NCBI RefSeq assembly: GCF_000315365.1
Contig: NZ_CAOS01000003.1
Coordinates: forward strand, 310,001 to 374,000
Length of the DNA: 64,000 nt
Source: Desulforamulus hydrothermalis Lam5 = DSM 18033
GTDB taxonomy: Bacteria > Bacillota > Desulfotomaculia > Desulfotomaculales > Desulfotomaculaceae
Reading direction: 5' to 3'
Numbering within the stretch: position 1 is the first letter of the stretch; every line of letters begins with the position of its first letter. The notes beneath the pieces are model-generated. The model was not told the DNA's origin and ran no database searches. It worked only from the letters and a program-made list of their open reading frames with translations. This document shows, in pieces, positions 7,736 through 51,368 of the stretch. The translations under genes were made by a program, and so were the position numbers.

Positions 7736-7774
7736 TCTTTTCCCTCCCAGCTTCTCAGGCTGTTGCCAACCGGC

Positions 7775-8593
7775 TTATTTTAAATAGGCCTGGATTACCT
7801 GCAACACTGTAGTTTGTTCGCTATCCACACCGCCTTCCGGCGAGAAACGGTTAACAAAGGTGTATTTGAGGGCAGTCTGCAGCGGTTGTCCCCTGCTTAT
7901 CAATGCCGAAGCAGCAATGGCGGGACGGAATCCGGTGGGACGGCTAAGGCTTTCTTCATGGTACAGGCTGTTAAGTTTATGAGTAATCCTGGCCAGCAGC
8001 AAGGCATGCTGCGGCGTGGCACCATAGACCTTGTCCAGCAGATCAGCCATCACTTCCACCGGTGGCAGGGTAAGCTGAATTGTTTCAAATCGGTCTTCCA
8101 CCGCCGTATCTTCCATAAAGGTACCGGTATGGCTGCGGCCCCGGTTTTCGGTAGCAATAAAAATACAACGGGGATGCACCGTAATGTATTGTTTGGTTTC
8201 TTCAATATAAACTTCCCGGTTGTGGTCTAAAATGGTGTAAATAGAGTTATGAATATCGGGAGTTACCCGGTTAAATTCATCCAGTGCCACGATACCCGGC
8301 TGCTGAATGGCTGCAACAAACTGGGACTGAACAAAAACCGTTTGCCCGCCAATAAATTCCCAATGCCCGAACCAATCCCTGGGCGTCCGGACGGCACCCA
8401 CATTAACCCGGTGAAAAGGCAGGTTATGCGCCCGGGCCAGCCGCTTGGTAAGTTCTGTTTTACCCGTACCGGGATCGCCGGTAAGCATAACATTAATGCC
8501 GGAAAACATTAAATCCTGTATTACAGACAATTTTTCAGGATCAACCCAAAAATCAGGCAAACTTTCCACATTTTTTCCCCATTGCTCTGTCAT
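7775..8593 (-). CDS. MoxR-family AAA+ ATPase
   Basis: 272 aa with Walker A GDPGTGKTEL near residues 39-48, Walker B GIVALDEFNRV near 102-112, and a sensor-1 region around FIATENRG. The start ATG is preceded by GGGGGTTGTATT. It forms a two-gene operon with the VWA/HEAAH protein downstream. MoxR-VWA pairs act as chaperones that remodel or insert cofactors into specific enzymes; which enzyme is served here cannot be told from the window. Confidence 0.88.
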   Translation of the reverse strand: MTEQWGKNVESLPDFWVDPEKLSVIQDLMFSGINVMLTGDPGTGKTELTKRLARAHNLPFHRVNVGAVRTPRDWFGHWEFIGGQTVFVQSQFVAAIQQPGIVALDEFNRVTPDIHNSIYTILDHNREVYIEETKQYITVHPRCIFIATENRGRSHTGTFMEDTAVEDRFETIQLTLPPVEVMADLLDKVYGATPQHALLLARITHKLNSLYHEESLSRPTGFRPAIAASALISRGQPLQTALKYTFVNRFSPEGGVDSEQTTVLQVIQAYLK

Positions 8594-10090: not shown

Positions 10091-11401
10091 ATGACTAAAT
10101 TATTAATCCAAAAACTGGAACAGATTGAAAATGCATTTTACCTGTCATCCGTCCAGGTCAGAGAATTAGCAAAGAAGCTGCAAACAGAAATGACAGGTTT
10201 GCCCGGCCAAGGCTCATTACAAATGCTGCCCACATTTATGCAGCTGCCTGCCGGCAGCGAAACCGGCACTTTTCTGGCGGTTGATTTCGGCGGCACTAAC
10301 GTTCGTTTACAGTTGGTGGAATTGCTGGGCCGGGGGCAGTATGCCATTAAAAAACAACATTCCTTCCGGTTGAAAGACCCCTCCGGCCGGTATGATTTCA
10401 CCGCCCGGGAAACCACCGGCGAAGCTCTGTTTGACTTTCTGGCCGGCCAGATTGCCTCTTTTATGGAGGGTACTTTCGCCACTTCACTGGGCCTTACCTT
10501 TTCTTTCCCCTGCCGTCAGCTGGCAGCCAACAAAGCCGTGTTGCTGCATTGGACGAAAGAGTTTCAAACCTCGGCAGTGGTAGGCCGGGAAATCATGGGG
10601 CTTTTGGCCGGAGCACTGGCTGACAGGGGTTTAGCCCATCTGCAGCCGGCTGCCCTCATAAATGACACCACCGGCACCTTGCTTACAGCCGCCTACAGCA
10701 ACCCCCACGCCGATATCGGCTCCATTTGCGGCACCGGACACAATACTTGTTATTTTAAAACAAAAGAACCGGCCATGATTATTAACATGGAAGCCGGCAA
10801 CTTTAAGCAATTTGCCCTTACAGCATACGACCGGCTGCTGGACAGCAACAGCCGCCGGCCGGGTACCCAACTGCTGGAAAAGGCTGTTGCGGGCCGTTAT
10901 TTGGGAGAAATTTGCCGCCTCATCCTGCTGGATATGGTTGAACAGGGCCTGCTTTTTCGTGGCAGCATACCGGCTTTAGTCAGGCAGCAGCAAACCATTG
11001 ACACTTCTGAGCTGGCTCTCCTGGCAGCGGATAATTCCCCCTCACTGCTTCATATTGACCGCTGGCTGGCCGCCAGGCAAAACATACATCCCACCACCTT
11101 GACTGACCGGCAAGTATTAAAAAAGATTGCTTTAACGGTTATTTCGCGTTCTGCCCGGTTGGTCGGCGCCACTTACATCGGCATCTTACAGCAAATAGAC
11201 CCGGGCCTGCAGCGCCGTCATGTGATCGGGCTGGACGGTTCACTGTTTGAGAAAATGCCCGGCTACCTGTCAAAAGTACGGGCAGTGCTGCGGGAAGTAT
11301 TCAACGATAAAGCCCAAAGTATTTTGCCGGTTCTTACCGGCAACGGTTCCGGCATCGGCGCTGCCATTGCGGCAGCCGTCTGTGCTGACAGACAGACCTA
11401 G
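10091..11401 (+). CDS. Hexokinase of the eukaryotic family
   Basis: 436 aa. Phosphorylates hexoses with ATP. The order of motifs follows eukaryotic-type hexokinases: phosphate-1 loop FLAVDFGGTNVRLQ (about residues 60-73), LGLTFSFPC sugar-binding region (about 136-144), NDTTGTLLTAAY (about 195-206) with the catalytic Asp, IGSICGTGHN (about 213-222), and a C-terminal GNGSGIGAA adenosine loop. The two-domain length of about 440 aa fits one hexokinase unit rather than the shorter ROK or Glk glucokinases. It is monocistronic. This family is uncommon in bacteria but known in some anaerobic Firmicutes; glucose as substrate is inferred. Confidence 0.88.
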   Translation: MTKLLIQKLEQIENAFYLSSVQVRELAKKLQTEMTGLPGQGSLQMLPTFMQLPAGSETGTFLAVDFGGTNVRLQLVELLGRGQYAIKKQHSFRLKDPSGRYDFTARETTGEALFDFLAGQIASFMEGTFATSLGLTFSFPCRQLAANKAVLLHWTKEFQTSAVVGREIMGLLAGALADRGLAHLQPAALINDTTGTLLTAAYSNPHADIGSICGTGHNTCYFKTKEPAMIINMEAGNFKQFALTAYDRLLDSNSRRPGTQLLEKAVAGRYLGEICRLILLDMVEQGLLFRGSIPALVRQQQTIDTSELALLAADNSPSLLHIDRWLAARQNIHPTTLTDRQVLKKIALTVISRSARLVGATYIGILQQIDPGLQRRHVIGLDGSLFEKMPGYLSKVRAVLREVFNDKAQSILPVLTGNGSGIGAAIAAAVCADRQT

Positions 11402-21086: not shown

Positions 21087-21827
21087 ATGATATTTAATAA
21101 AAAAATTGTCTGCAGTTTCATCCTGGCGGGGCTTTTGTTTTTTAACAATACAGCCTTTGCCGGTAACTTTTATACCGTAAAAAAAGGCGATAGCCTTTGG
21201 AGTATTTCTCAAGCATACGGCACTACAGTGGAAGAACTAAAAAGAGCCAACCGCTTAACCGGCGATAATTTATCCATTGGCCAGCGGTTGCTTATTTCTT
21301 ATCCGGTTTTAACTTCCCGTGGCCCAGCAAAATCGCCGTTACCTGACTGGTTGGCAGTTACCTCCGCTGTGCCTGCCGCCGACCAGGCAAGCCAAGTGTC
21401 CCAGGATCAACAGCCAACTGTCGAACTGGTTGACTGGTTTACTGAAGGAAAAAAGTTATTGCAAAGCGGCGTAATTTTTTCGGTGGCTGACTGCGCCACC
21501 GGTGCCCAACTTCAATTAAAGGTTTTGAGTGCCGGTAATCATTGCGATATTGAACCGGCATCACAGGCAGATACAAATGCCATGCTGAGGCTGTTTGGCC
21601 AGTGGACCTGGTCACCCCGTCCGGTGGTGATCCAAATTAACGGCCGCCGCATTGCCGGTTCTCTTTCCGGTATGCCACACAGCATCGATACCACACCGGA
21701 CAACGGTGTTGAGGGGCATTTTGATCTTTACCTGCATAACAGCCGCCCCCACGGCAGCGGCGTCTCCCAAAGTTATGTACAGCAGCATTATGCTGCCGTT
21801 GCCAAGTCGGCAGGGTCAGATAATTAA
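21087..21827 (+). CDS. Secreted LysM-domain protein
   Basis: 246 aa. A signal peptide (about residues 1-26, ending at NTAFAGN) is followed at once by one LysM domain, FYTVKKGDSLWSISQAYG onward, which binds peptidoglycan or chitin-like glycans. A linker precedes a C-terminal region (about 120-235) with SVADCATGAQLQLKVLS and a GMPHSIDTTPDN segment, known from other Firmicute LysM proteins but of unclear function. Strong AAAAGGAG ribosome site. CATTATGTA at 25 bp upstream could be a sporulation-type -10. It opens the probable spore-surface locus. Confidence 0.85.
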   Translation: MIFNKKIVCSFILAGLLFFNNTAFAGNFYTVKKGDSLWSISQAYGTTVEELKRANRLTGDNLSIGQRLLISYPVLTSRGPAKSPLPDWLAVTSAVPAADQASQVSQDQQPTVELVDWFTEGKKLLQSGVIFSVADCATGAQLQLKVLSAGNHCDIEPASQADTNAMLRLFGQWTWSPRPVVIQINGRRIAGSLSGMPHSIDTTPDNGVEGHFDLYLHNSRPHGSGVSQSYVQQHYAAVAKSAGSDN

Positions 21828-21890: not shown

Positions 21891-21927
21891 TTTTATAGAG
21901 ATAATTAATAACCGGATTGGCTGTAGT

Positions 21928-21945
21928 TGAATAGCATGTAATAAA
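21928..21945 (+). promoter_or_regulatory. Promoter-like motif of CsxC-like gene 1
   Basis: TGAATAGCATGTAATAAA. The same TGAATAnCATGnnnTA pattern lies before the other two CsxC-like genes, always 34-36 bp from the CATG to the start codon. CATGnnnTA resembles a SigK-type -10 (CATAnnnTA). Confidence 0.5.
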
Positions 21946-21970: not shown

Positions 21971-23089
21971 GTGTTCAATTTTAAGACTGATTTTTTCAGT
22001 CAACCTAAAGTTGGACAGATCATAGAAACAAACCAAGAAAGCGACATGCAAGCAACGACAATAGCGGAACTGCCTGAATCAGCTGAGTTGCCGCTGTCGG
22101 CACAAAGTGAAGCGGCAGAACAAGCGAATCCGGCAAGGGATGCGGTTGATGCCGTCTACCAGGAATTAACAGCATGGCCGGAATTGCCTGATGCATTAAC
22201 TGAACCGCCCGAGTCCACCGTAACAGAAACCAGAGTTTTTTATCACCCGGGATGTATCGATACCGCCGGAGCCAATTTGCTCAGTTGCGATAATACACCG
22301 GTGCCTGTTACGGGCCTGCCGGGGGATGTTGTTGCTAAACTGCCCGTGGTGCTGGCGGAACTAAGTATCCGGGTCAATGTGGATGCCAAGGTTGACCTGC
22401 CGGAACAGGCACTGGAAATCAAAGAAATCAACAAATCTGTTAAACTTACCCAATGCCTGGTATTACAAGATCCGGAAGAAACCATCCCACCCCTGCTCTT
22501 TCTTAAGGGATTTATCCGCAAGAACATTAATTATGCTGCAAAGGATTGTTCCCACCAGGCCGGTACCTGCGGCGATATACGCCACTGCACTGTGGATGTG
22601 CCTTTTAGCTGTACCACGCCGGTAGTATTTAACGGCACCCCGCCGGTTGTCCCACTGGTCAATACGGTATCAGAGTTTCAGTATTTTCGGCGGGAAGATT
22701 TACCTAACAGCCGGTTCTCTGAAAAGGATGAATTATTGTCAGGAGATTTATCCGAGTTTAATCAGGTTACCCAGGAATTCTATAATGAACTGCCTTATGG
22801 TGAATTAGTCAGCGCCCGTATTGTAGAATATGACGAATTTATCAAGGGCGACGCCAAAGCCGCCCAGCTGCCCCCGGGCGAGCAGGAGTTTTTTGCTTTA
22901 GAGCAAAAAATGGTGCTGCTGTTAACCATTAAAATTTTACAAAAACAACAGGTTTACATTCCCCCTACCCCTAGCGCACCGGCACCCTCTCCGAACAGCG
23001 ACCTGGACAGTGGTCTGCCGCCCGTGGATGAATCGGAAACTTCCGAACCGGCAACCGGCGATCAAGACAAACCTGCGACTGCCACATAA
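21971..23089 (+). CDS. CsxC/SPOCS-like spore coat protein, paralog 1
   Basis: 372 aa from GTG after GAAGGAGGG. A variable acidic N-terminus (about 1-110) precedes the conserved domain shared with the two following genes: LPVVLAELSIRVNV, an LPEQALEIKEI segment, KSVKLTQCLVLQD, LKGFIRKNINYA, CGDIRHCTVDVPFSC, and a C-terminal SARIVEYDEF. The KGFIRKNI-type beta strands resemble the SPOCS domain (DUF3794) and CsxC-type proteins of clostridial spore surfaces. Conserved cysteines suggest disulfide cross-linking. A Pro/Glu/Asp-rich tail ends the protein. No signal peptide, which fits assembly from the mother cell. Confidence 0.75.
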   Translation: MFNFKTDFFSQPKVGQIIETNQESDMQATTIAELPESAELPLSAQSEAAEQANPARDAVDAVYQELTAWPELPDALTEPPESTVTETRVFYHPGCIDTAGANLLSCDNTPVPVTGLPGDVVAKLPVVLAELSIRVNVDAKVDLPEQALEIKEINKSVKLTQCLVLQDPEETIPPLLFLKGFIRKNINYAAKDCSHQAGTCGDIRHCTVDVPFSCTTPVVFNGTPPVVPLVNTVSEFQYFRREDLPNSRFSEKDELLSGDLSEFNQVTQEFYNELPYGELVSARIVEYDEFIKGDAKAAQLPPGEQEFFALEQKMVLLLTIKILQKQQVYIPPTPSAPAPSPNSDLDSGLPPVDESETSEPATGDQDKPATAT

Positions 23090-23170
23090 AATCAAGTTGA
23101 CGGAAAAACCAAGTAATACCGACATATTTTGGCGGTACAGTTTAAAAAATGTAACCCGCTTCGAGACACC

Positions 23171-23190
23171 TGAATATCATGCACTATAAA
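23171..23190 (+). promoter_or_regulatory. Promoter-like motif of CsxC-like gene 2
   Basis: TGAATATCATGCACTATAAA, same pattern and distance (CATG 36 bp from the ATG) as in the neighbouring paralogs. Confidence 0.5.
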
Positions 23191-23212: not shown

Positions 23213-23998
23213 ATGTCCAAAAATGACTTGCTCGATCTGCCCCAGGATGACCGGGGAAAAAGCAAGAGTTACGCCACAGCCGCTTGCGTCAATGTATCCG
23301 GCGGGACCCAACCGGAATGTGTAAGCACCACCGCTCCCATAACTTATATCAGAGGTCCGGTAACTGTAAAAATACCCGTTGTACTGGCTGAACTAACGGT
23401 ACAAGTGAACTTGAATTCTATGATTACCCTGCCTGAACCTGCCCTGGAAATTAAAAGAATTAAAAAACGTTTAAAGGTAACCCAGTGTTTGCTGCTGCAG
23501 GATACCAATGTACTGTTCCTCAAGGGTTTTGTTCGTAAAAACATTGAATATGCTACCCGCAGCTGTGCAAACGCCGAAGGCGTTTGCGGTGACATCCGTC
23601 ACTGCACTGTTGACGTACCCTTCAGTTGCTCAACACCTGTCACTTTTAACGGGGCTACACCGGCCACACTTAATTTAAATACACGGGAAGAGTTTGAATT
23701 TTTCCGTACCCAGGATCTGTCAGACCGGGAGTTTGCTGAAAAAGACTTCTTGCTGTCCGGTGACATGTCAGAGTTTAACCAGATCAGCCAGGAATATTTC
23801 AATGAACTGCCCTTCTGTGAACTAATCAGCGCCCGCATTGTGGAGTATGATGAGCTAATCAACCGTATACGGCCCGCCCATACCAAACTGCCCTTTGAAG
23901 AAAAAGAGTTCAAACAAATTGAAGAAAAAATGGTGCTTTTTATTACCCTGAAGATCTTACAAAACCAACAGGTAATAGTGCCTTCACAAAGCACTTAA
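23213..23998 (+). CDS. CsxC/SPOCS-like spore coat protein, paralog 2
   Basis: 261 aa. The ATG at 23213 follows AAAGGGGG; an overlapping ATG 4 bp upstream gives only a few codons. It has the same domain as its neighbours with the motifs PVVLAELTVQVNL, LPEPALEIKRI, FLKGFVRKNIEYAT, CGDIRHCTVDVPFSC and LISARIVEYDEL. It lacks the long acidic N-terminus and the Pro-rich tail of paralog 1. The own promoter-like motif and a following hairpin suggest it is transcribed singly. Role inferred: structural protein of the spore surface. Confidence 0.75.
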   Translation: MSKNDLLDLPQDDRGKSKSYATAACVNVSGGTQPECVSTTAPITYIRGPVTVKIPVVLAELTVQVNLNSMITLPEPALEIKRIKKRLKVTQCLLLQDTNVLFLKGFVRKNIEYATRSCANAEGVCGDIRHCTVDVPFSCSTPVTFNGATPATLNLNTREEFEFFRTQDLSDREFAEKDFLLSGDMSEFNQISQEYFNELPFCELISARIVEYDELINRIRPAHTKLPFEEKEFKQIEEKMVLFITLKILQNQQVIVPSQST

Positions 23999-24046: not shown

Positions 24047-24345
24047 TTCTTACCTTCTTATAGCAACCCCATTATCATGCCATTTCCTTTGTTTCCATTA
24101 TTTTACTTTCAATGTATGCAGTCTTTTTCTTTTTGCTACTGTGCCACGCATTTTTTGTTTTTATAGAATTAGCTAAATCCTTCTTTGCTCACCCAACTAT
24201 CAGTGTTTGCCAATTCTTTGGCCGAAGTGCACCAACTCTGGTTTTCCACATCCTTTATCTACAGTGGGGACGGTTCATAAAACCACCGCCGGCAATTCTT
24301 CTATCTGGTTTTTTTTCCATAAAAAGTAACATAAAATATTTTCCC
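24047..24345. other. Intergenic stretch, possible repeat remnant
   Basis: No gene supported; the open frame here is T-rich and without a ribosome site. GGTTCATAAAACCACCG at about 24269-24285 resembles the inner arm of the terminator-associated repeats and may be a decayed copy. Confidence 0.3.
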
Positions 24346-24363
24346 TGAATAACATGCAGTAAA
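24346..24363 (+). promoter_or_regulatory. Promoter-like motif of CsxC-like gene 3
   Basis: TGAATAACATGCAGTAAA; CATG lies 34 bp from the start codon, as in the two paralogs upstream. Confidence 0.5.
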
Positions 24364-24386: not shown

Positions 24387-25154
24387 ATGTCTGGATGCTT
24401 CCCACCCCACAAACCCTGTGGCAAAGTGGTCACCGGCGGCGTGCAGCCCGAATGTGCCAGTGTTACGGTTCCCATTACCGGACTGTCAAGCGGCGCCACA
24501 GTTAAAATACCGGTAGTGCTGGCTGAATTGACGATCCAGGTAAATATCAATTCAATTGTAACCCTGCCGGAACCGGCTTTGGAAATTAAGGACATTAAAA
24601 AACGCGTTAAGGTAACTCAATGCTTGCTGCTGCAAGACCCGGCAGCCCCCGGCGGGCCCGCTACCCTTTCGATTAAAGGCTTTGTACGCAAGAACATTGA
24701 TTATGCCACTCGCCTTTGCGCCAATTTAGAAGGGGTTTGCGGCGATATCCGGCACTGTACGGTTGACGTACCCTTTAGCTGCATGACGCAGGTTGTCTTT
24801 AACGGCGCCACACCCGCTTCCATTCTGGTAAATACAACCGAAGAATTTGAGTTTTTCCGCAGTCAACCACTCAAAGGCCATGGTTTCGCCGAAAAAGACC
24901 GCTTGCTGTCAGGCGATCTTTCCGAGTTTAACCAGGTAAGCCAGGAATTTTTCAACGAGCTGCCTTTCTGTGAGTTAATCAGTGCCCGTATTGTTGAGTT
25001 TGACGAATATCTCAACCGCCGGCGTCCTAAGACCTGTGCTTTGCCCTTTGAGGAAAAAGAATTCAGGCAAGTGGAAGAAAAAATGGTGCTTTATCTTACC
25101 CTTAAAATTCTGCAAAATCAACAAGTGGCCATCCCCCCCTTGGGTCCCGGTTAA
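24387..25154 (+). CDS. CsxC/SPOCS-like spore coat protein, paralog 3
   Basis: 255 aa starting at ATG after AAAGGAGGATT. Closest to paralog 2 through the whole length: PVVLAELTIQVNI, LPEPALEIKDI, SIKGFVRKNIDYAT, CGDIRHCTVDVPFSC and LISARIVEFDEY. A Gly/Pro/Ala insert (AAPGGPA) sits where paralog 2 is shorter. Cysteine positions are conserved among the three. A strong terminator follows. Tandem placement and the similarity point to local gene duplication. Confidence 0.75.
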   Translation: MSGCFPPHKPCGKVVTGGVQPECASVTVPITGLSSGATVKIPVVLAELTIQVNINSIVTLPEPALEIKDIKKRVKVTQCLLLQDPAAPGGPATLSIKGFVRKNIDYATRLCANLEGVCGDIRHCTVDVPFSCMTQVVFNGATPASILVNTTEEFEFFRSQPLKGHGFAEKDRLLSGDLSEFNQVSQEFFNELPFCELISARIVEFDEYLNRRRPKTCALPFEEKEFRQVEEKMVLYLTLKILQNQQVAIPPLGPG

Positions 25155-25196: not shown

Positions 25197-25264
25197 ATGG
25201 TTAAAGTAACCGAATTGCCTGCACAGGAATAAATTAACATTAAATATATGCAAGGAGGTTGCCT

Positions 25265-27874
25265 ATGAATAAGAAGGAATTTAAACAGTATATCCAGGCA
25301 ATGGTTGATTCCATGCTGGAGAAAATACCGGATTACGACGCTTCGGAAGAAGATCTGGCCGGTATTTTTCAGGAATACCCTGATGACATCCCTGATGAAC
25401 TGATCGAAGAACTATACACCAAGCTGCAAGCAAGTGGCGGTTTTGCCGATGACGGCGACTGGGATAACATATACCAGTGGAGCGAGCTGCTTGACTGGGC
25501 AGGTTTTAAAGAAAGTGGCGGTTACTGCAGCAGTGATGACAGCTGTGATTTTTGCGATGAATCTGCCTGGGATAACCCATGCCCCCCGTCAAAACCAAAA
25601 TTCAAGCCGCCGTTTAAAAAGCACTGCTCGGATGACAAGTGGTTGAAATGCTTTATCTTAACCTGTCTTAAACTAAAACTGATTCTCTGTCTGCTTAAAA
25701 ACCCCCGGTTCGGGTTACAGGAAATAAAGCGGGAAATTAAGCTCATTGAAAATGCTGTCTTTAGCCCTACCTTTGGATTAAAGGAAATTAAAAAAGAAAT
25801 TCGCCGTCTGGAATGCGGCATCTTTAACCCTACCTTCGGTTTGCCGGAAATCAAAGCCGAGGTGTCGGCTATTGAAGCCGCTGTCTTCAGTGAAACCTTC
25901 GGCCTGAGCGAAATCAAGGCTGAGGTGTCCGATATCCTGGCTTTGGTCAGCAACCTGGATTTAGCCCTGTTGTCGGATATTAAGTCTGAAGTGTCCGCCA
26001 TTGAGTCGGCGGTCTTCAGCCAAACCTTCGGCCTCAGCGAAATCAAGGCTGAGGTGTCCGATATCCTGGCTTTGGTCAGCAACCTGGATTTAGCCCTGTT
26101 GTCGGATATTAAGTCCGAAGTGTCCGCTATTGAGTCGGCCGTCTTCAGCCAAACCTTCGGCCTCAGCGAAATCAAAGCCGAGGTGTCCGATATCCTGGCT
26201 TTGGTCAGCAACCTGGATTTAGCCCTGTTGTCGGATATTAAGTCCGAAGTGTCCGCTATTGAGTCGGCCGTCTTCAGCCAAACCTTCGGCCTCAGCGAAA
26301 TCAAAGCCGAGGTGTCCGATATCCTGGCTTTGGTCAGCAACCTGGATTTAGCCCTGTTGTCGGATATTAAGTCCGAAGTGTCCGCTATTGAGTCGGCGGT
26401 CTTCAGCCAAACCTTCGGCCTCAGCGAAATCAAAGCCGAGGTGTCCGATATCCTGGCTTTGGTCAGCAACCTGGATTTAGCCCTGTTGTCGGATATTAAG
26501 TCCGAAGTGTCCGCTATTGAGTCGGCGGTCTTCAGCCAAACCTTCGGCCTCAGCGAAATCAAAGCCGAGGTGTCCGATATCCTGGCCATTGTGACAGATA
26601 TTGTTCTCAACCCTGTATTTGGCATTAGCGAAATTAAGGCCGAGGTGTCGGCACTGGAATCTGCAGTGGCAGGTATCATGGATGAGATTAGCAGCCAGAC
26701 CTTTGGTCTTAGTGAAATCAAAGCTGAGGTGTCGGCTATTGAAGCCGCCGTCTTCAGCGAAACCTTCGGCTTGAGCGAAATCAAGGCTGAAGTGTCCGAC
26801 ATCCTGGCCATTGTATCCAATCTGGACTTTGCCCTGTTCTCTGATATTAAGTCCGAAGTGTCGGCTATTGAAGCCGCCGTCTTCAGCGAAACCTTCGGCT
26901 TGAGTGAAATCAAGGCTGAAGTGTCCGACATCCTGGCCATTGTATCCAATCTGGACTTTGCCCTGTTCTCTGATATTAAGTCCGAAGTGTCCGCCATTGA
27001 AGCCGCAGTCTTCAGCCAAACCTTCGGCTTGAGTGAAATCAAAGCCGAGGTGTCGGCTATTGAAGCCGCCGTCTTCAGCGAAACCTTCGGCTTGAGTGAA
27101 ATCAAGGCTGAAGTGTCAGCCATTCAAAATGATGTAGACGGCATTACCGCCTTACTTATATCTATCTTAGTTCTCCTGTTGGATTCTGACTTTAGCCTGC
27201 CTGAGATAAAAACCGAAGTCTCAGCCATTGAATCCGCTCTCTTTAGCGAAACCTTCGGACTCAGTGAAATCAAGGCGGAGGTATCCGATATCCTGGCTAT
27301 CGTATCCAATCTGGACTTTGCCCTGTTCTCTGATATTAAGTCCGAAGTGTCCGCCATCGAAGCGGCCGTCTTCAGTGAAACCTTCGGCCTGAGCGAAATC
27401 AAGGCTGAGGTGTCGGCTATTGAAACCGCCGTCTTCAGTGAAACCTTCGGCCTGCAGGAAATAAAATCTGAAGTTTCAGCTATACTGGCTGAATTTGACC
27501 AGCTTATGCTGTGCAAAGGCCCTGCCGCCAATTTAACCACCGGCCCCTTCCTGGCCACAACCCAGGAATACAATATGGAAGTAGAAGCCTTTAACGCCAC
27601 CGGCACCTTCCAGAGCGTTACCTTCCAGGTGTTTTCCTTAGAAACCTGCCCGGCTTCCCTGCTTGACTCGGTGGCCTTCACCAACATCACCCCCTGCTGC
27701 GGCGCCCGGGCTTCTCTCAATATCGCCGGACCCCTGCGCAGCATCATATTGAAAGCCCAAACCAGCTCTACTTTCGGCCTCTTCCTGTATGCCGTATCCA
27801 TAACGGGCGGCGGCGGCAAGGTCAGCCAATTCCATTCCTCAGACTTTCTGCCCCTGGGTACCTTCTGCGTTTAA
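25265..27874 (+). CDS. Large EIKxEVS-repeat protein, probable spore-surface fibre
   Basis: 869 aa; ATG chosen because AAGGAGG is 6 bp upstream (a TTG two codons earlier abuts it). The N-terminal 120 residues are acidic with a Cys cluster (GYCSSDDSCDFCDES), then a Lys/Pro stretch and a Cys-containing hydrophobic helix. From about residue 150 to 750 come about 27 copies of a motif [ST]FGLxEIKxEVSxIExAVFS or SDIKSEVS, alternating with hydrophobic SNLDLALL spacers, most likely a long helical or coiled rod. The C-terminal 110 residues (from LTTGPF) form a beta-rich domain with CC, shared with the next gene. No signal peptide. Not a family I can name; a spore appendage or exosporium filament is inferred from neighbours. 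Confidence 0.75.
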   Translation: MNKKEFKQYIQAMVDSMLEKIPDYDASEEDLAGIFQEYPDDIPDELIEELYTKLQASGGFADDGDWDNIYQWSELLDWAGFKESGGYCSSDDSCDFCDESAWDNPCPPSKPKFKPPFKKHCSDDKWLKCFILTCLKLKLILCLLKNPRFGLQEIKREIKLIENAVFSPTFGLKEIKKEIRRLECGIFNPTFGLPEIKAEVSAIEAAVFSETFGLSEIKAEVSDILALVSNLDLALLSDIKSEVSAIESAVFSQTFGLSEIKAEVSDILALVSNLDLALLSDIKSEVSAIESAVFSQTFGLSEIKAEVSDILALVSNLDLALLSDIKSEVSAIESAVFSQTFGLSEIKAEVSDILALVSNLDLALLSDIKSEVSAIESAVFSQTFGLSEIKAEVSDILALVSNLDLALLSDIKSEVSAIESAVFSQTFGLSEIKAEVSDILAIVTDIVLNPVFGISEIKAEVSALESAVAGIMDEISSQTFGLSEIKAEVSAIEAAVFSETFGLSEIKAEVSDILAIVSNLDFALFSDIKSEVSAIEAAVFSETFGLSEIKAEVSDILAIVSNLDFALFSDIKSEVSAIEAAVFSQTFGLSEIKAEVSAIEAAVFSETFGLSEIKAEVSAIQNDVDGITALLISILVLLLDSDFSLPEIKTEVSAIESALFSETFGLSEIKAEVSDILAIVSNLDFALFSDIKSEVSAIEAAVFSETFGLSEIKAEVSAIETAVFSETFGLQEIKSEVSAILAEFDQLMLCKGPAANLTTGPFLATTQEYNMEVEAFNATGTFQSVTFQVFSLETCPASLLDSVAFTNITPCCGARASLNIAGPLRSIILKAQTSSTFGLFLYAVSITGGGGKVSQFHSSDFLPLGTFCV
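25901..26588 (+). repeat. 129-bp tandem repeat array
   Basis: About five near-identical 129-bp units (43 codons: SEIKAEVSDILALVSNLD-type block plus SDIKSEVSAIESAVFSQ block) within the repeat protein; for example TCGGATATTAAGTC at 25973 recurs at 26102. Near identity at synonymous sites indicates recent expansion. Copy number may vary between strains and be misassembled. Confidence 0.9.
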
Positions 27875-27910: not shown

Positions 27911-27992
27911 CTAATTACCGCTGGCAACCAAGTAACATTTATCAAACTTTGTCATATTATGTAAAAGAAATCTTTTAGAGGAGGTCTTGCCT

Positions 27993-28913
27993 GTGCATAA
28001 CTGGGACGACGACAACCCTTGGGGCAAATGGGGCAAAAAATGTTATGACCCCGGCTGTGGCGAGGAGCCCGGCGAAGATGGCTTTGACAGCGAAGATACA
28101 TGCGATTTTGACCAAACGGCCCTGCTGCTGCACAAAATTATTAAAGCCCTGTGCATACTAAAGCGGGAAATTGCCAAGTGCGAAGAAATTTTATGCAACC
28201 CCAAGTTTGGCCTGAAAGAAATCAAACGGGAAGTGCGCAATATTGAACGGGGCGTTTTCAGCCCCACCTTCGGCCTGCCGGAAATTAAAGCCGAAGTTTC
28301 CACCGTGCAAACCATTGTGGGCGGCATTATGGATATGCTGGATAATCCCACTTTCGGGCTGCCGGAAATTAAGGCGGAAGTATCTGATATTCTGGCCATT
28401 GTCAGCAACCTTAACCTGGACTTCCCCGTCACTCTCTTATCTGACATTAAATCAGAAGTTTCCGCCATTGAAGCAGCGGTCTTCAGCCCAACCTACGGCC
28501 TGCCGGAAATTAAAGCCGAAGTCAGCCAGATCCTGGCCAACCAGAGTGAAAGCCCCCTGCTCACCACCGGTCCTTTTACCGTAGACTGCAACGAACTGAC
28601 CATGCTGCTGAAGGCTTTAAACAACACCGCTACACCCCAGAGCGTTACTTTTGTGATACGCAACCTGACCAACTGCCCGACGGTGGCGGTAAGTGAGGTG
28701 GGGCTGGCGGTACCCGCCTGCTGCAGCGAAGATACTGAAGTAGCCATCCCCGGCAGCGGCCAAAGAAACATTGAGGTCAGGGCCAGCCGCAGCTCGGCCG
28801 ACGGTGTGCTGGTCTACCTGGCCACCAAAACCGGCATGCCCTTCAGCGCAGGGAGCAAAGTAAATGAATTTAAGCATGCGGAATGGGTGCCTGTAGCCAC
28901 TTTCTGTTCCTAA
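27993..28913 (+). CDS. Short EIKxEVS-repeat protein, paralog of the preceding gene
   Basis: 306 aa from GTG at 27993, 8 bp after AGAGGAGG (a TTG two codons upstream is too close to that site). Acidic Cys-containing N-terminus (HNWDDDNPWGKW, DSEDTCDFD), a helix with two Cys, then only about six EIK/DIK motifs (FGLKEIKREV, FGLPEIKAEVS). The C-terminal domain begins LTTGPFTVDCNEL and ends WVPVATFC, parallel to the end of the larger protein (LPLGTFC). It may form the short or basal version of the same fibre. CATATTATG lies 40 bp upstream. Confidence 0.75.
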   Translation: MHNWDDDNPWGKWGKKCYDPGCGEEPGEDGFDSEDTCDFDQTALLLHKIIKALCILKREIAKCEEILCNPKFGLKEIKREVRNIERGVFSPTFGLPEIKAEVSTVQTIVGGIMDMLDNPTFGLPEIKAEVSDILAIVSNLNLDFPVTLLSDIKSEVSAIEAAVFSPTYGLPEIKAEVSQILANQSESPLLTTGPFTVDCNELTMLLKALNNTATPQSVTFVIRNLTNCPTVAVSEVGLAVPACCSEDTEVAIPGSGQRNIEVRASRSSADGVLVYLATKTGMPFSAGSKVNEFKHAEWVPVATFCS

Positions 28914-29005: not shown

Positions 29006-30976
29006 ATGATTTCTTTATGCATGATTGTCAAAAATGAGGAACACAACCTGGCCAGGTGTCTCAACAGTGTTAAAAACTGTGTTGATGAAATAATTATCGT
29101 GGATACCGGTTCAACCGACGGCACCCTGACAATTGCCCGGCAGTATGGCGCCAAAATTTATCATTATCAGTGGGATGAAGACTTTGCCGCCGCCCGCAAT
29201 TACAGCCTGGAACAGGCCGGCGGGGAGTGGATTCTTTATCTGGACGCTGATGAAGAACTGGAACCTAATAGCTGTGAGCGCCTGCGGGCCCTGGCCGCTG
29301 ACCCCCTTTATGAAGCATATTTTTTCCAAATCATTAACCTTACAGATAATAATGCTCCTTTAAAACATATTAATGTGCGGATGTTTCGCAATAAGCCCCG
29401 GTACCGCTTCACCGGAAAACTGCACGAACAAATTATCAGCGCCATCCCCCCCCGCAGCGGCCGGCCGCCGGTGGTTAACTCCGGCCTTTGCATTATCCAC
29501 TACGGCTACCTGGCCAGGGAATTTTTGATCAAAAACAAAGCGGTGCGCAATCACCGCATCAACCAGCGCCTGGTGGAGGAGGAACCTGATAACCCCTTTT
29601 ATCTGTACAGTCTGGGCGGCTCTTGTGTAAATTTGAACGACCTGACCGGCGCCATCACCCATTACCGCAAAGCCCTGCAGCACGTCAACCTGCGGGCCAT
29701 GTATGCCCCCAGCATTTTTATTTCCCTTATTTCCTGCCTGTCCAAAACCGGCCGGCTGGTGGAGGCGGCAGAGTATATAGAACAGGGCAAAACACACTAC
29801 CCTGACTATGTGGATATTCATTTTGTTGAAGGAGAGTTTTACCACCGCCTAGGCCATCTTCAACGGGCTGTGGCCTGCTATGAAAAATGCCTGCAGTTGG
29901 GAGAACAACTGGCGGGCAAATATACTTCCCGTACCGGGGTGGGCAGCTTCCTCCCCTGTTTTAAGCTGGCGGAGATTTATCAACAGGAAGGCCGTCTAAA
30001 AGAAGCCCTGGCCTATCAAATTGCCGGTTTAAAGTATCAGCCCGCCGACATCAACCAGTATATTGCACTGGCCCGCTTGCTGCAGCAAGCGGCAAGCAGC
30101 AGGCAGCAGCTTTATGAAATATTAAAGGAAAATATCAAACATAAGGATCAGGTTGCCCGGCGACTGCTGCTGGCCCGTATTTTTTACGAAATTGGCGAAT
30201 ATGAACAGGCCCTTGAATTATTCAACGAACTGCCGGACGACCGGCAGGAAACCGCTTATTATAAAGCATTAACCTGCATTAAGAGCGGCCGCCGGGCAGC
30301 CGCCCGGCAAAGCATGGCTTACATCCGGCAGTCTCATTTATATGAAAGTGTGCTGGCAGAATTGTTGCCGGCCTGCTGGACCGCCGCTCCCCCGGAGGAT
30401 GTGCTGCCTTACCTGGAACATGAGGCGTGGCCAGCCCCGGAACACCGCAGCATTATACTGAATATAAACCACCTGTTGTTAGACCGGCCGGCCGCCTCAG
30501 AAATCAACCTGCATAACTACTACGTCAACCAGATTGTAAATCAACTGCTGGCCCAAAAAGCCTTTAGCGCCGTGGATAAAATTTTAAACCAGGGCGGTTT
30601 GACCGCTGCAGCAGATAAAATCAACTATTTAATGCAAGATGACAGCAATCCCTGCCGGGTGGAAATGGCCGCCCGCCTGGCCCTGGCCGCTGTTAAAATG
30701 GGTTCCGTGCAGCCGGACTGGCTGTTTGCCTGGGGCAAATATTTTTATCACAACAACCGGCTGGCTACCGCCCAGGCCGCTTTACAGCAGGCCCTGCGGC
30801 TGCACCCCCGCAACGGCCGCTACCAGCAACTGTTAATATTTATCTACGGCCGGCAAACCCTGCAAATGGTACAAACCGCTCTCCGGCATTACCCTGCTAA
30901 CCCGCAGTTCACCCGCCGGTTAATTGAGCTGCATGAATTTTTAAATTTGGATGCCGGATTAAAGGGGGTGCATTAA
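29006..30976 (+). CDS. Glycosyltransferase family 2 with TPR-like region
   Basis: 656 aa. Start M-I-S-L-C-M-I-V after CGGAGGAAAGCC; an in-frame ATG 41 codons upstream overlaps the previous terminator. GT-A domain (about 1-220): SLCMIVKNEEHNLARCL, IIIVDTGSTDGT, and the metal-binding DxD-type LDADEELEP. The remaining 430 residues are helical TPR-like repeats (for example LGGSCVNLNDLTGAITHYRK). Such TPR-fused GT2 enzymes often glycosylate surface proteins. CATATACTGG 35 bp upstream resembles a SigE/SigK -10. The next gene starts one base after its stop. Confidence 0.85.
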   Translation: MISLCMIVKNEEHNLARCLNSVKNCVDEIIIVDTGSTDGTLTIARQYGAKIYHYQWDEDFAAARNYSLEQAGGEWILYLDADEELEPNSCERLRALAADPLYEAYFFQIINLTDNNAPLKHINVRMFRNKPRYRFTGKLHEQIISAIPPRSGRPPVVNSGLCIIHYGYLAREFLIKNKAVRNHRINQRLVEEEPDNPFYLYSLGGSCVNLNDLTGAITHYRKALQHVNLRAMYAPSIFISLISCLSKTGRLVEAAEYIEQGKTHYPDYVDIHFVEGEFYHRLGHLQRAVACYEKCLQLGEQLAGKYTSRTGVGSFLPCFKLAEIYQQEGRLKEALAYQIAGLKYQPADINQYIALARLLQQAASSRQQLYEILKENIKHKDQVARRLLLARIFYEIGEYEQALELFNELPDDRQETAYYKALTCIKSGRRAAARQSMAYIRQSHLYESVLAELLPACWTAAPPEDVLPYLEHEAWPAPEHRSIILNINHLLLDRPAASEINLHNYYVNQIVNQLLAQKAFSAVDKILNQGGLTAAADKINYLMQDDSNPCRVEMAARLALAAVKMGSVQPDWLFAWGKYFYHNNRLATAQAALQQALRLHPRNGRYQQLLIFIYGRQTLQMVQTALRHYPANPQFTRRLIELHEFLNLDAGLKGVH

Positions 30977-32110
30977 ATGGCCAAAACCGTCAGCCTGTGT
31001 CTAATTGCCAAAAACGAAGAAAAACATATTGCCCGTTGCATTAACAGCGCCAAACCCTTTGTAGATCAAATTGTGGTGGTTGATACCGGTTCCACTGATC
31101 ACACAGCCGAAATAGCTGAAAGCCTGGGAGCGGAAGTATACCACCATATCTGGCAGGATGACTTTGCCCTGGCCCGCAACCAGTCCCTGTCATACGCCAC
31201 CGGTGACTGGATAATTTTTCTGGACTGTGATGAAGAGCTGGCTCCCGCAACTGCGCCGTTACTGCGGCAAGTTATTCAGGATGACTATTATCAGGGGTAC
31301 TGGGTAAAAATTGTAAACTTTTACGATAACCGGCCCAGCACCAGCTTTATCGGTTTTCGGTTGTTTCGCAACAGCCCCCGGCACCGTTTTGAAATACCCA
31401 TTCACGAGCAAATACTGCCGGCAGTGATTCGCAATTCATCGCCGGAAAAAATCGGCCAGTCCGACATCACCATTTATCATTACGGCTATGAAAATGATCA
31501 AGAAGCCCACCGCAATAAAATTCAGCGCAATTTAAGAATTTTGCACAAAGCCATGCGGGATTACGGCCAGACAGGATTTTTACCCTTTTACCTGGGGGTT
31601 GAGTACCAAAAACTGGGGGATTACCAAAAGGCGTTGGCCTACTATCAAATTTCCCTGCCCAGAACTCCCCTGACAGAATCCTATGCGCCCGCCCTGGTCC
31701 GGGGCATGGCCTTTTGCTTGTTAAGCCTTAAACAATACCAGGCGGGTATTGATTTGATAGATCACTTTTTGCAGGTTTATCCCGATTACACCGACCTGGT
31801 GTTTTTAAAGGGGGCCATGTATGCAGCGCAGGAAAATATCCCGGCGGCTCTGGCCTGTATGAACCGCTGCCTGGCTATGGGTCCGCCGCCCGGCCATCTT
31901 TTTTCCAGCCATGGCATCGGCCGGGAAAAACCCCTGGCTGTGATAAAAGATTTAACCGAAAAATTGCTGCACCAGGCAGCCGCCTCTTTGGCTCGGGGCG
32001 AATGCTCCCAGGTCTTCTTAACACTCAACACAGTCTTGGAGCAGCTAACCAAAACACCTTACGAAGAAGGGTTCCATAAGATGATAGAAATTATGTTAGC
32101 AACATTATAA
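30977..32110 (+). CDS. Glycosyltransferase family 2 with TPR-like region
   Basis: 377 aa; its ATG follows the previous stop directly (TAAATG), with AAAGGGGGTG as ribosome site, so the two are coupled. GT-A domain with VSLCLIAKNEEKHIARC, VVVDTGSTDHT and FLDCDEELAP, plus a HEQI-type conserved His region, very like the N-terminus of the preceding enzyme. TPR-like helices occupy roughly residues 190-370. Likely acts in the same glycan pathway. Confidence 0.85.
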   Translation: MAKTVSLCLIAKNEEKHIARCINSAKPFVDQIVVVDTGSTDHTAEIAESLGAEVYHHIWQDDFALARNQSLSYATGDWIIFLDCDEELAPATAPLLRQVIQDDYYQGYWVKIVNFYDNRPSTSFIGFRLFRNSPRHRFEIPIHEQILPAVIRNSSPEKIGQSDITIYHYGYENDQEAHRNKIQRNLRILHKAMRDYGQTGFLPFYLGVEYQKLGDYQKALAYYQISLPRTPLTESYAPALVRGMAFCLLSLKQYQAGIDLIDHFLQVYPDYTDLVFLKGAMYAAQENIPAALACMNRCLAMGPPPGHLFSSHGIGREKPLAVIKDLTEKLLHQAAASLARGECSQVFLTLNTVLEQLTKTPYEEGFHKMIEIMLATL

Positions 32111-32177: not shown

Positions 32178-33890
32178 ATGTATTTGGTTGATCAGCTGAG
32201 GAGCAGCGAATATCTAAGCCGGTTGGAGCGTCTTAAACTCATACCGGGGCAAACGTTGGTCAAGAAAGCCGGCGCGGTCAGGGCAGATAAGCTGCATGTG
32301 GTTTACTTGCTGGGTCATGTCAGTGTCTGCGGCGGGGTAAAAATCATCCTGGAACATGCCAACCGGCTGGTGCAGCACGGTGTGCGGGTAACGCTGCTGT
32401 CCCACTTCCCCAGGCCGGACTGGTTTGAGTTAAGGGCGGATTATCGCCGGGTTCCCTTTGGCCTTGACCTGGCCCGGGGGATTCCCTTTGACTGTGATGT
32501 GGTGGTGGCCACTTACTGGGATCAGTTGGGTGCCTGTGTGGAAGCCTGTGTTGCCCCGGTGGTTTATTTTGAACAGGGAGATTTCCATTTATGGGATTGG
32601 CCAAAGGTTAACCCTGAGCTGCAGGAAATTATCCATCATTTTTACCGGCTGCCGGCTCATATCATAACCTGTTCGGTCACCGGTGCCCGTAAAATTAAAG
32701 AAGTATTTGGACGGGAAGCGACAGTCTTTTACAATGCACTGAACAGCGAGGTTTTCTTCCCAAAATCCCAACCGCCCGCTGACCGCATTGTCCTGGGCGT
32801 GGGCCGGGACACCACTCCCTTCAAGCGGCTGCCGGATATTGGGGAAGCCTGCCGGCTGGTTCAGGAGCAGGGTTACCCGGTTGAGTTCAGATGGGTCACT
32901 CCCTACCCGCCTGTGCGACCCGTGGGCACCATTGTGCTTAATCCCAGCCAGGCAGAACTGGGCAATGTTTACCGGCAAGCCTGGGTCTATGTTTGTGCCT
33001 CCGAGTATGAAACCTTCCCCTTACCGCCGCTGGAAGCCATGGCCTGCGGCACTCCGGTAATCACCACCCCGAACGACGGGGTCAAAGCCTATGCCGTGGA
33101 GGGCGAAAACTGCCTGTTTTATGAAACCGGCAATACCCGGCAATTGGCAGCCACCATCATCCGCCTGCTGGAACAGCCCGACTTATATAACAAATTACAG
33201 GCCGGGGGTTATCAAACTGCCAAACAGTTCAGTTGGCAGCAGGTTATCCCCCAGCTTAAGGCTTATTATGCCAAGGTTGCCGGTTATCAACCGGTGCTTA
33301 TAAATCAGCCTTCTGAATGGGAGGAACTCCGGCCGTCAGAATTGACCGCCGCTGAACAGCAAGCAGTGGCCCAAGCGCTGGGTGGCACTACAGCGGATCA
33401 GGTTTATCTGCCTTTTGTCTATAAATTGCCGGAATTTACCGTGGTTCGCTGGCAGCCGGTTTTTTACCGAAAAAAAGGCAGCAGCGGCCGGGCCGAATTT
33501 CTTTATGGCTTATTTAAAGCCGGTTCCCTGGCCGAACACCCTTACAGCTTGGCCCTGGAACAAATACAGTTGCAAAACCATCGCCAAGCGCTGGCAAGAT
33601 TTAAAAGTTACCTGGATAAAACCAATAACCACCGGGAGGCCGCGGTTCTTATCAGGTGGCTGGCCTGGTGTTTGCTTAAATTAGAACGTTATAGCGATGC
33701 CCACCGCCTGATGCACAAGGGCATGCAGCTTTACCCGGACTTTGCCGACTTTTATTACTTATATGCTTTGTTTTTCCGGCACCGGGGCTTTGCGGCGGAG
33801 TTGCAGACCATGCAAAATACCTTGCGGGTGCTGGGGGATGGTGCGGGCTATCCGGAATACATTAAAGACATTGCCGCCCTGACTCTTTAG
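32178..33890 (+). CDS. Glycosyltransferase family 4 (GT-B) with C-terminal helical region
   Basis: 570 aa after GAGCGGAGGATAAAGC. GT-B fold: N-terminal Rossmann domain beginning LHVVYLLGHVSVCGGVK (about 38-54), and the nucleotide-sugar domain with the E-x7-E motif in SEYETFPLPPLEAMACG (about residue 275-291). The last 150 residues are TPR-like (FKSYLDKTNNHREAAVLI), an add-on shared with the neighbouring GTs. Transfers a sugar from a nucleotide donor, with retention expected for GT4; acceptor unknown. Confidence 0.85.
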   Translation: MYLVDQLRSSEYLSRLERLKLIPGQTLVKKAGAVRADKLHVVYLLGHVSVCGGVKIILEHANRLVQHGVRVTLLSHFPRPDWFELRADYRRVPFGLDLARGIPFDCDVVVATYWDQLGACVEACVAPVVYFEQGDFHLWDWPKVNPELQEIIHHFYRLPAHIITCSVTGARKIKEVFGREATVFYNALNSEVFFPKSQPPADRIVLGVGRDTTPFKRLPDIGEACRLVQEQGYPVEFRWVTPYPPVRPVGTIVLNPSQAELGNVYRQAWVYVCASEYETFPLPPLEAMACGTPVITTPNDGVKAYAVEGENCLFYETGNTRQLAATIIRLLEQPDLYNKLQAGGYQTAKQFSWQQVIPQLKAYYAKVAGYQPVLINQPSEWEELRPSELTAAEQQAVAQALGGTTADQVYLPFVYKLPEFTVVRWQPVFYRKKGSSGRAEFLYGLFKAGSLAEHPYSLALEQIQLQNHRQALARFKSYLDKTNNHREAAVLIRWLAWCLLKLERYSDAHRLMHKGMQLYPDFADFYYLYALFFRHRGFAAELQTMQNTLRVLGDGAGYPEYIKDIAALTL

Positions 33891-33914: not shown

Positions 33915-35030
33915 ATGATCAGTGTGATTATGCCGGTCTATAACGGCGAGGCTTTTTTAGAAGAAACCATACAGAGCGTACTGCAGCAAACCATGCCGGA
34001 TTTTGAATTTATCATTATCAACGATGGCTCCACCGACCGCAGCGAAGAAATTATCCTGTCTTTTAAGGACCCCCGTATTCGCTACTTTAAACAAGCCAAC
34101 AGCGGCCCGGCAGCCGCCAGAAATAAAGGCCTGGACAATATGAAAGGGGATTTCGCGGTAATGCAGGATGCTGATGATATTTCACTGCCCATGCGCTTTG
34201 CAACCCTGCTGCGTCATTTTACCTCCCCCACTGTCGGCATTGTCCACTCTGATGTTTTATTAATTAATGAATATAACAGGCCGCTGGGCTATTGGGCAGC
34301 CGGCAATATTGAGAAAAAACGCATCCTGCGGTTTTTTTTAAAGGTGGGCACCCCTTTTAATAATAACAGCCTGATGATACGCCGGGAGGCCCTGCAGGGC
34401 ATCAGGCAGGATGTCTCCCTGCCTTTAAGTGAAGACACCGACATGATTTGGCAGGTAGCCAGGCATTGGGAAGCCGTCCATGTTCCCGAACCCCTGTTGC
34501 TGTACCGTCGTCATACAACCAATCTTACCAATACGAAAGACTATCATGTTTTGTTTGCTCATGTACACAAATTTCTTAACAGTTGTTCCCTGGAAGAATT
34601 AATTCCCGAGTTGAATTGGCAGGCAGCGGATGACGCCGTTAACCGGGCCCGGGCTTGTGCCATTATTGCTTTATTTCTGTTGCGCCGGGGCATGCTGCCG
34701 GATTGCCTGAGCTGGTATAATAAGGCACAATCGCTGGCTAAACAGAACGGCGAATTATTGGTTGATGCCATCGGTTTTATCATCAAGGGCGACTATTTGC
34801 AAGCCGCCCAAATCCTCTGCCAGGGTGATGCAGGAGATCCGGTGGTGTTAAACTATCTTGGCGAGTGTTTAGCCCTGACCGGAAATACTAAGGAAGCCCA
34901 GAAACATTTTCTTAAGGCTTTACAATTAAAACCAGATTATGAGGAACCCTTAAGCAACTTAAAAGGATTGTTGGGATTAAGACGGACAGCCTTCATTGAC
35001 CGGAGCTGGACGAAATTTCATCTGGCCTAG
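33915..35030 (+). CDS. Glycosyltransferase family 2 with C-terminal TPR motif
   Basis: 371 aa after AAAGGAGACTGCCAA. GT-A domain with ISVIMPVYNGEAFLEETI, FIIINDGSTDRSEE and the DxD-type QDADD. A single clear TPR near the C-terminus (LGECLALTGNTKEAQKHFL). It follows the GT4 gene by 24 bp, completing a four-gene glycosyltransferase run. Confidence 0.85.
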   Translation: MISVIMPVYNGEAFLEETIQSVLQQTMPDFEFIIINDGSTDRSEEIILSFKDPRIRYFKQANSGPAAARNKGLDNMKGDFAVMQDADDISLPMRFATLLRHFTSPTVGIVHSDVLLINEYNRPLGYWAAGNIEKKRILRFFLKVGTPFNNNSLMIRREALQGIRQDVSLPLSEDTDMIWQVARHWEAVHVPEPLLLYRRHTTNLTNTKDYHVLFAHVHKFLNSCSLEELIPELNWQAADDAVNRARACAIIALFLLRRGMLPDCLSWYNKAQSLAKQNGELLVDAIGFIIKGDYLQAAQILCQGDAGDPVVLNYLGECLALTGNTKEAQKHFLKALQLKPDYEEPLSNLKGLLGLRRTAFIDRSWTKFHLA

Positions 35031-38081: not shown

Positions 38082-38246
38082 CAAAACACCTCCTCCTTTC
38101 TGTAGCCTATGTAAATTAACCGGTAAGTGTTACCATTAAATAAAATATACAATTTTATGTAACACATTGGTAAAAATTACAATATTATGCAATAGAGGCC
38201 GGCTATTATTGTGCAGCCTTAATTATCATTATTAAGGAGGGTCTAT

Positions 38247-39011
38247 ATGACTAAAGAAATGCAGGATGACCGATTTAAGCCCAAATGCCCCCCTGCGCCT
38301 GTAGACATCTGTGTGCCGGTGGTATTTGCCGTTGACGATGAAACCGGCCATAACGCTTTTGTAGACACCAATATATTCGTGTTTCCTTCCAATATCTGCC
38401 GGGTTGAATGCGAAAACATAGAAATCACGGGTCGTACCATTACCTTTAATTGTGACAGGTTGTTATTGTGTGTGGACTATATTTTATGCCTGAAATTCTT
38501 CCCCAAGGTGGGGTCTCCTTACTGCCAAAGCTTTCCGGGCTGCTTTGCCAAGGAAATCAAATTTAATGAATTTACTGCAGCCATCCACCACCGACACCGG
38601 CTTACCCAGAAAGAATTCAGCGAAGCCCAGGGAGTTTGTGTGGAGGTAGAAGTGGTACCCGGCCACCGGGGATGTTTTAACCGGTTATTTAACTTAACAA
38701 AGATAGATCCTTGCCTGACGCTGATTATCAACTTTATTAGGTTTAACATTAGGGTTAAACTGTTTCAAGAACGAAATATCATTGTGCATGCCATTGTGGG
38801 CAAACCTGCCGTGCGCCTGCCAAAAGTTGTGGAAAGCTGCTGCAGCTGCAGATTTAATAATTTAATTAATAAAAAAGATATTACCCAGCCCAATGATTCT
38901 GGCGTTCTGCCCGCCGCAGTTGAATCTGCCTTGTTGCCGGACATTGAGAAATATAAGCTGAAAGCCCTGGAAGATTTTCAAAGAGAACTGCAAAACGAAA
39001 CAGTATTTTAA
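38247..39011 (+). CDS. Cys-rich protein, distant coat-like
   Basis: 254 aa after AAGGAGGGTCTAT. No signal peptide. Rich in Cys and beta-prone segments: CPPAPVDICVPVVFAVDDETG near the N-terminus, VECENIEITG, ESCCSC near residue 195. The PVVFA opening followed by a beta-strand series recalls the three CsxC-like proteins (PVVLAEL), but the CGDIRH block is absent. Probably another spore-surface structural protein; confidence in that role is moderate. Confidence 0.65.
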   Translation: MTKEMQDDRFKPKCPPAPVDICVPVVFAVDDETGHNAFVDTNIFVFPSNICRVECENIEITGRTITFNCDRLLLCVDYILCLKFFPKVGSPYCQSFPGCFAKEIKFNEFTAAIHHRHRLTQKEFSEAQGVCVEVEVVPGHRGCFNRLFNLTKIDPCLTLIINFIRFNIRVKLFQERNIIVHAIVGKPAVRLPKVVESCCSCRFNNLINKKDITQPNDSGVLPAAVESALLPDIEKYKLKALEDFQRELQNETVF

Positions 39012-50706: not shown

Positions 50707-51368
50707 TAATTCCGGGGCTTGGTGATGAGGAAGGACTGACCTATTGTTGACAATCTGCATAAAATATTAACCGTTAAACATTTGGACAAACATTTTACCA
50801 TAAGGACCGCCGTTCACCACGCCGATACCGACTTTGGTATATTCAGGCTTTAATATGTTAGCTTTATGACTGGGAGAATTCATTAAGTTTTTATGAGCAG
50901 TGTTTACATCCGGTGCACCGGCCAGGTTTTCTCCGGCATACCGATACGTAACACCGGCATTTTTCATCATCTCGAAGGGGGTACCATAGGTAGGTGAGGT
51001 ATGGCTAAAATAATTATTAACAATCATATCCTGGGCTTTTAAACGCGCCAGTTCGGTGAGCTTGGCGTCATATGCCAGGGGTTGCAAGCCGGCCGCAAGC
51101 CGCTCTTGATTAATTAAGTTCAACATAGCCTGCTCGTCAGCCACGCTTATATTTATGGATGCAGCAACAGGCTGTTGGGATGTCTGAGCCGGTGCTTGGG
51201 TTGGTGTTTGGGTTGGTGCCTGGGTTGATGGCTGAGCCGGTGCTTGGGTTGGTGTTTGTCACCGCCGGGATATAATTGACCCAGGTTCGCCGGAAAGAAA
51301 ATGACCCACCCTTAGCGAATATATCCCCTTCGTAATTAACGGCCAAGTTAATCTTCGGAGGGAGACAC

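Follow-up and report, generated by a model that had tools for sequence, protein, structure and literature searches.

A heptad-repeat protein of Desulforamulus hydrothermalis as a putative collagen-free fibre of the spore surface

Introduction

The spore hairs described so far are chiefly fibres of collagen-like proteins (BclA) or of beta subunits (ENA). A gene of Desulforamulus hydrothermalis Lam5, located at positions 25265 to 27874 of the window (the whole stretch of 64,000 nucleotides analysed here), encodes a protein of 869 amino acids dominated by copies of a single motif, which raises the question of what structure such a protein forms and where it serves the cell. The anatomy of the protein, its locus and its promoter are direct observations on the sequence. 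Together they make it quite probable that the gene encodes a glycosylated, non-collagenous coiled-coil fibre of the spore surface (exosporium or outer layer), produced late by the mother cell. If so, a coiled-coil fibre with conserved glycosylation enzymes would represent a further building plan for spore hairs, and the protein would provide a first candidate component of the outer surface of spores in environmental sulfate reducers. Compared with the original prediction for this DNA, the short paralogue, the CsxC and glycosyltransferase neighbours, the common promoter and the spore context are additions. The features described between positions 21087 and 35030 lie on the plus strand.

Organization of the long protein and its short paralogue

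The long gene starts with an ATG at 25265, directly preceded by AGGAGG. An acidic, Cys-rich N-terminus had been predicted, and the first 150 residues indeed contain eight Cys and 30 Asp plus Glu. This N-terminal region (25265-25708) is closed by a hydrophobic, Cys-containing helix (about 25634-25702) that is conserved in the orthologues and reads WLKCFILTCLKLKLILCLLK; it is proposed as a candidate anchor. The repeat stalk follows (25709-27505), and the estimate of about 27 EIKxEVS motifs proved exact, with 27 IKxE[VI] motifs counted between residues ~150 and 748. The C-terminal head domain (LTTGPF...PCC...FLPLGTFC, 27533-27871), supported by a conserved alignment and the model of the short paralogue, comprises about 115 residues with a conserved CC pair. 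A second copy closes the short paralogue encoded next to the long gene (27993-28913), which carries five motifs and is read from a GTG start 8 nt after an AGGAGG. Judged by eye, the N-termini of the long and the short protein show no signal peptide.

AF2 modelling of the short-paralogue head yielded eight beta strands with pLDDT mostly 80-90, in line with the beta-rich, CC-containing C-terminus originally described. Fold comparison of this model retrieved TM1070, a sensory rhodopsin transducer, carbohydrate-binding modules (CBMs) and LecB-like lectins at borderline Z scores of 6-8.6; these matches hint at glycan binding without establishing it. In a Foldseek search of the head, a recombinant Ena2A chain was weakly matched (E 1e-2, TM-score 0.25). 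At the sequence level, the head domains gave no match in Pfam (16 head domains, up to E 1) or among PDB sequences. The search of the repeat against family databases, proposed with the original prediction, likewise led to no known class, and the library models cover neither repeat nor head. Matches on the repeats to Pfam DUF3953, RED_N, herpes pp85 and crescentin, to NCBIfam NuoI and to PHROGs were rejected as repeat-driven, as either no single stretch passes alone or the score lies far below the cut-off. A literature search found no paper describing the repeat; the surfaceome study of D. reducens dealt with vegetative cells.

The stalk: coiled coil or solenoid

The basic unit of the stalk has 21 residues and the form xTFGLxEIKxEVSxIExAVFS. 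Its five core positions L, I, V, I and V follow each other in steps of 3-4-3-4, occupy a and d positions and are hydrophobic in all 27 motifs of the long protein. The heptad frame of these positions runs on across units, with a d position at the unit junction (P/S/E) that is not hydrophobic. In 22 proteins of the repeat family, successive motifs follow each other mostly at intervals of 21, 28 or 35 residues, and 109 of 128 distinct inter-motif segments are multiples of 7, compared with ~18 expected at random, the sequences being related and not independent. Spacings outside this register (22, 24-26 and 45) are mostly confined to a single variant unit, which ends in LLSDIK or similar. The heptad pattern is thus kept through the repeats, as expected of a parallel oligomeric coiled coil. 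Heptad-quantised spacing and hydrophobic core positions together suggest a segmented coiled coil that ends in a beta-sandwich head.

The P-T-F-G between units breaks the helix, so that a continuous coiled coil is not certain, and both the continuity of the stalk and its oligomeric state are predictions. Most a and d positions of the stalk hold beta-branched residues, which in coiled coils favour trimers, and the chains of the long protein would oligomerise, probably as trimers. For the fibre assumed by the original prediction, support is indirect and comes from the spore-surface locus, the heptad spacing of the repeats and the beta head; the AF2 model of the full 869-residue protein, computed as a single chain, was uninformative (pLDDT 33).

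The main rival is a helical scaffold in the same spore layer: the repeats might form a monomeric solenoid of paired antiparallel helices with two-helix units of 43 residues and no extended fibre, and act within the coat or exosporium as a scaffold or as a platform for binding. The AF2 model of the short paralogue, with one low-confidence helix per motif and breaks at PTFGL, is compatible with such an arrangement, and amplification often involves two unlike motifs together, a block of 43 residues. However, single insertions of 7 or 14 residues (spacing 28 and 35) beside plain 21-residue units suit an axial heptad register better than they would a solenoid whose helices are matched, and the core positions keep their 3-4-3-4 pattern uninterrupted, which leaves the solenoid rather unlikely and the coiled-coil stalk preferred.

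A locus with spore-surface features

The long gene is directly preceded by three genes for proteins of the CsxC family (NF045794), encoded at 21971-23089 (E 4.6e-71, 239 bits), 23213-23998 (E 1.6e-79) and 24387-25154 (E 1.2e-78). Scores of 239-267 bits against a family cut-off of 135 place all three in the family; they are neighbours, not relatives, of the repeat protein. A LysM-domain protein (Pfam LysM, E 2.7e-18) is encoded further upstream (21087-21827). CsxC was found in purified exosporium of C. sporogenes (PMC4942563), and the three proteins are possible basal-layer partners of the repeat protein. No CsxC match was obtained in two genus genomes with the fibre gene (G003 and G007), and outside the genus CsxC genes do not adjoin the repeat gene.

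Downstream of the short paralogue, four glycosyltransferase genes were recognised by Pfam domains. The first encodes a GT2-TPR enzyme (29006-30976; the ORF is listed from 28883, the ATG at 29006 being more likely) and is followed by a second GT2-TPR gene for a protein of 377 amino acids (30977-32110), also supported by synteny. Then come a GT4 (32178-33890) and a GT2 glycosyltransferase (33915-35030), both with TPR. The 377-residue enzyme has the same plan as SgtA of C. difficile, a glycosyltransferase with TPR that is encoded beside bclA3 and adds the first sugar to threonines of BclA3 (PMC7157674). Each of the eight genus genomes with the repeat gene has GT2-TPR genes directly beside it (in fragmentary form in one draft), and the same arrangement is found in order-level relatives and some distant Bacillota; at the distant loci L118, L119, L122 and L126, the neighbouring GT2-TPR gene is absent. 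The sole genus genome without the repeat gene (G004) is also without a close homologue of the 377-residue enzyme: its best match there is 36% identical, compared with 57-77% in relatives having the repeat gene. At one related locus, an additional GT2 gene lies between the long and the short fibre genes (L034:11450-12946).

A common promoter element connects the structural genes. The pattern [GA]T[AC]AC[AC]-N15-[CG]A[AT][AT][AT] matches six times in the 64 kb (both strands), and five of the matches stand before structural genes at positions -58 to -63: those of the three csxC genes (21908-21933, 23151-23176 and 24326-24351), the long (25206-25231) and the short fibre gene (27932-27957). For the short gene, position 27990 served as the reference point, and its GTG start is probably at 27993. 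As the pattern was derived from these window genes themselves, its conservation in relatives and the sixth match are the fairer tests: in D. putei (L043) and in L034, it precedes five out of five of the orthologues. The short gene shows the clear sigma-K form AACA-N15-CATATTATG, also found 5' of long genes in other genera (L035 and L037). In C. difficile, the -35 region contains AC in promoters of sigma-K and ATA in those of sigma-E, and bclA1-3 are under sigma-K (PMC3789822). By this comparison, the promoter common to the five structural genes appears sigma-K-like.

The sixth match (GTAACACATTGGTAAAAATTACAATATTATG, region 38159-39011) lies 88 nt before a gene at 38247 for a Cys-rich protein of 254 amino acids without family match, which occurs elsewhere in the genus only in G007, where it is disrupted; the protein is a candidate for a further spore-surface protein.

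The locus is interpreted as a spore-surface locus because it unites three CsxC-family genes, the short paralogue, the GT2-TPR genes and the sigma-K-like promoter. Clusters of glycosyltransferases serve vegetative surface proteins too, and the repeat protein could in principle be a vegetative cell-surface or secreted adhesin with neighbouring glycosylation genes, unrelated to spores. Three CsxC-family neighbours and sigma-K-like promoters speak against this reading, as does the lack of a signal peptide (by eye) in the long and short proteins, which is expected for mother-cell coat proteins; an adhesin is accordingly improbable, and a fibre of the spore surface is retained.

Expansion of the 129-bp arrays

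Two tandem arrays were detected by TRF in the long gene, one with 5.7 copies of a 129-bp unit (25857-26586, 97% matches) and a second with 2.5 copies (26729-27054, 95% matches); sub-periods of 63 bp were reported as well. Among the five full units of the first array, units 3 and 4 are identical (129/129), and unit 5 differs from them by one base, unit 2 by five and unit 1 by 11. When one and the same peptide was encoded twice independently in simulation, following local codon use, the identity came to 73.6% +/- 3.5%, with a maximum of 84.5% in 2000 draws. The near-identity noted earlier, synonymous sites included, exceeds every one of these draws and therefore indicates recent duplication or homogenisation, not protein constraint.

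The proposed change in copy number is supported between species by motif counts and differing array units. In the long proteins of genus orthologues, 4, 6, 13, 13, 14, 15 and 27 motifs were counted, with D. putei (4 motifs, 367 amino acids) at one extreme and D. hydrothermalis and L034 (27 motifs each, the latter with 898 amino acids) at the other. Compared with the array period of 129 bp in D. hydrothermalis, L034 shows periods of 129 and 192 bp, L037 one of 135 bp and L117 one of 147 bp, and the D. putei gene is without such a tandem array. Expansion thus took place separately in several lineages.

An assembly artefact, the check suggested at the outset, is very unlikely: the genome is a draft of 16 contigs and two units are identical, but the reading frame is intact, similar arrays recur in single-contig genomes, and the Lam5 assembly combined Sanger 10-kb clones, 454 mate pairs, PCR finishing and Illumina checks (PMC3569332). 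In one relative (G288, L116:8560-8720), the array is broken into two frames of 1137 and 998 amino acids, where the sister genome G312 (L117) has a single frame of 1323; a frameshift, a pseudogene or a sequencing error may account for this.

Distribution and relation to collagen-like proteins

The repeat gene occurs in eight of nine Desulforamulus genomes and has relatives elsewhere in Bacillota. Searches recovered the head domain from 16 of 113 genomes in the class and from 16 of a sample of 398 genomes across the phylum, and the repeat profile from 15 of the latter; no plasmid records carrying the head domain were found. The profile of the short paralogue matched four named loci, which belong to D. 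putei, D. aeronauticus, D. aquiferis and an uncultured Desulfotomaculum. SpoIVA is present in all nine genus genomes including D. hydrothermalis, as expected of a spore-former. In a family of order-level relatives, a gene for a headless second repeat protein with a His/Lys/Cys-rich tail at its end lies 5' of the repeat-plus-head gene (L037:5776-6684, L038:9673-10536 and L042:6528-7445).

A collagen domain (PF01391) is not matched anywhere in the genome of D. hydrothermalis. The repeat protein occurs without collagen in this species and four further genus members and together with it in three, and the sole genus genome without the repeat protein (G004) has the collagen domain. This distribution, with small numbers (nine genus genomes), suggests that the repeat protein may substitute for collagen-like proteins.

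Comparison with known spore fibres and proposed assembly

The closest parallel is provided by the BclA-type nap glycoproteins (BclA of B. anthracis, BclA1-3 of C. difficile and BclA of C. sporogenes). Both systems combine a repetitive stalk of variable length with a C-terminal beta head and have an adjacent GT-TPR gene (sgtA-bclA3, PMC7157674), and the sigma-K-type expression of the BclA genes (PMC3789822) finds its counterpart in the sigma-K-like promoter predicted here. In contrast, the Gly-X-Y collagen stalk is absent from the repeat protein, whose stalk is a putative heptad coiled coil. Its head, compared with the C1q/TNF-like jelly roll of BclA-type proteins, is a predicted beta-sandwich without sequence match to known families and with best fold matches to TM1070 and CBMs (Z 8.6 or less). 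The F-ENA endospore appendage (DUF4183) with F-Anchor and F-BclA is likewise a fibrous structure of the spore surface, shows stalk plus beta head and a nearby glycosyltransferase, and occurs in Clostridia too (PMC11952670). However, it is a chain of beta subunits, whereas the stalk of the repeat protein is predicted to be helical, and DUF4183 is not matched by Pfam in the long, short or head sequences of the repeat family. Trimeric coiled-coil fibres of viruses (reovirus sigma-1, phage tail needle gp26) share the stalk-plus-head plan; the resemblance of their heptad stalks is weak and not significant (E 0.12-0.55), and no homology is claimed. Judged from sequence, the repeat protein is thus neither a collagen-like BclA nor an F-ENA, being BclA-like in architecture and gene neighbourhood.

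The surface location, glycosylation, oligomerisation and orientation that we infer can be joined in a model. The fibre would be made in the mother cell late in sporulation from a sigma-K-type promoter, and the neighbouring GT-TPR enzymes would O-glycosylate its Ser/Thr residues in the mother-cell cytoplasm. The Cys-containing N-terminus may attach to a Cys-rich layer of CsxC type with the heads pointing outward, and lysis of the mother cell would expose the fibres, so that no secretion signal would be needed. Unequal recombination in the 129-bp array would gain or lose blocks of two motifs and thereby shift stalk length over evolution. By arithmetic (1.485 A per residue), a continuous helix would measure ~89 nm in D. 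hydrothermalis and ~12 nm in D. putei.

Whether these proteins form a separate class of collagen-free spore fibres appears evenly balanced; such a class would have a glycosylated heptad stalk, its own head and dedicated GT-TPR enzymes, occur in several Bacillota classes, replace absent collagen-like nap proteins, and evolve rapidly in length by array expansion. If the proteins form coiled-coil spore hairs, the 4-27 motifs within one genus would offer a natural series of stalk lengths relating nap length to adhesion, dispersal and resistance.

Other features of the window

A VWA-domain protein (602 amino acids) adjoining an AAA_5 (MoxR/GvpN-like) ATPase is encoded on the minus strand at 5927-8593. 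An imperfect 12/24-bp tandem repeat (51181-52592) abuts a gene for an rve/Mu-type transposase. The region 10091-11401 encodes a full two-domain hexokinase (Pfam Hexokinase_1/Hexokinase_2, E 2.7e-49 and 2.8e-57). Hexokinases of this type are generally regarded as typical of eukaryotes.
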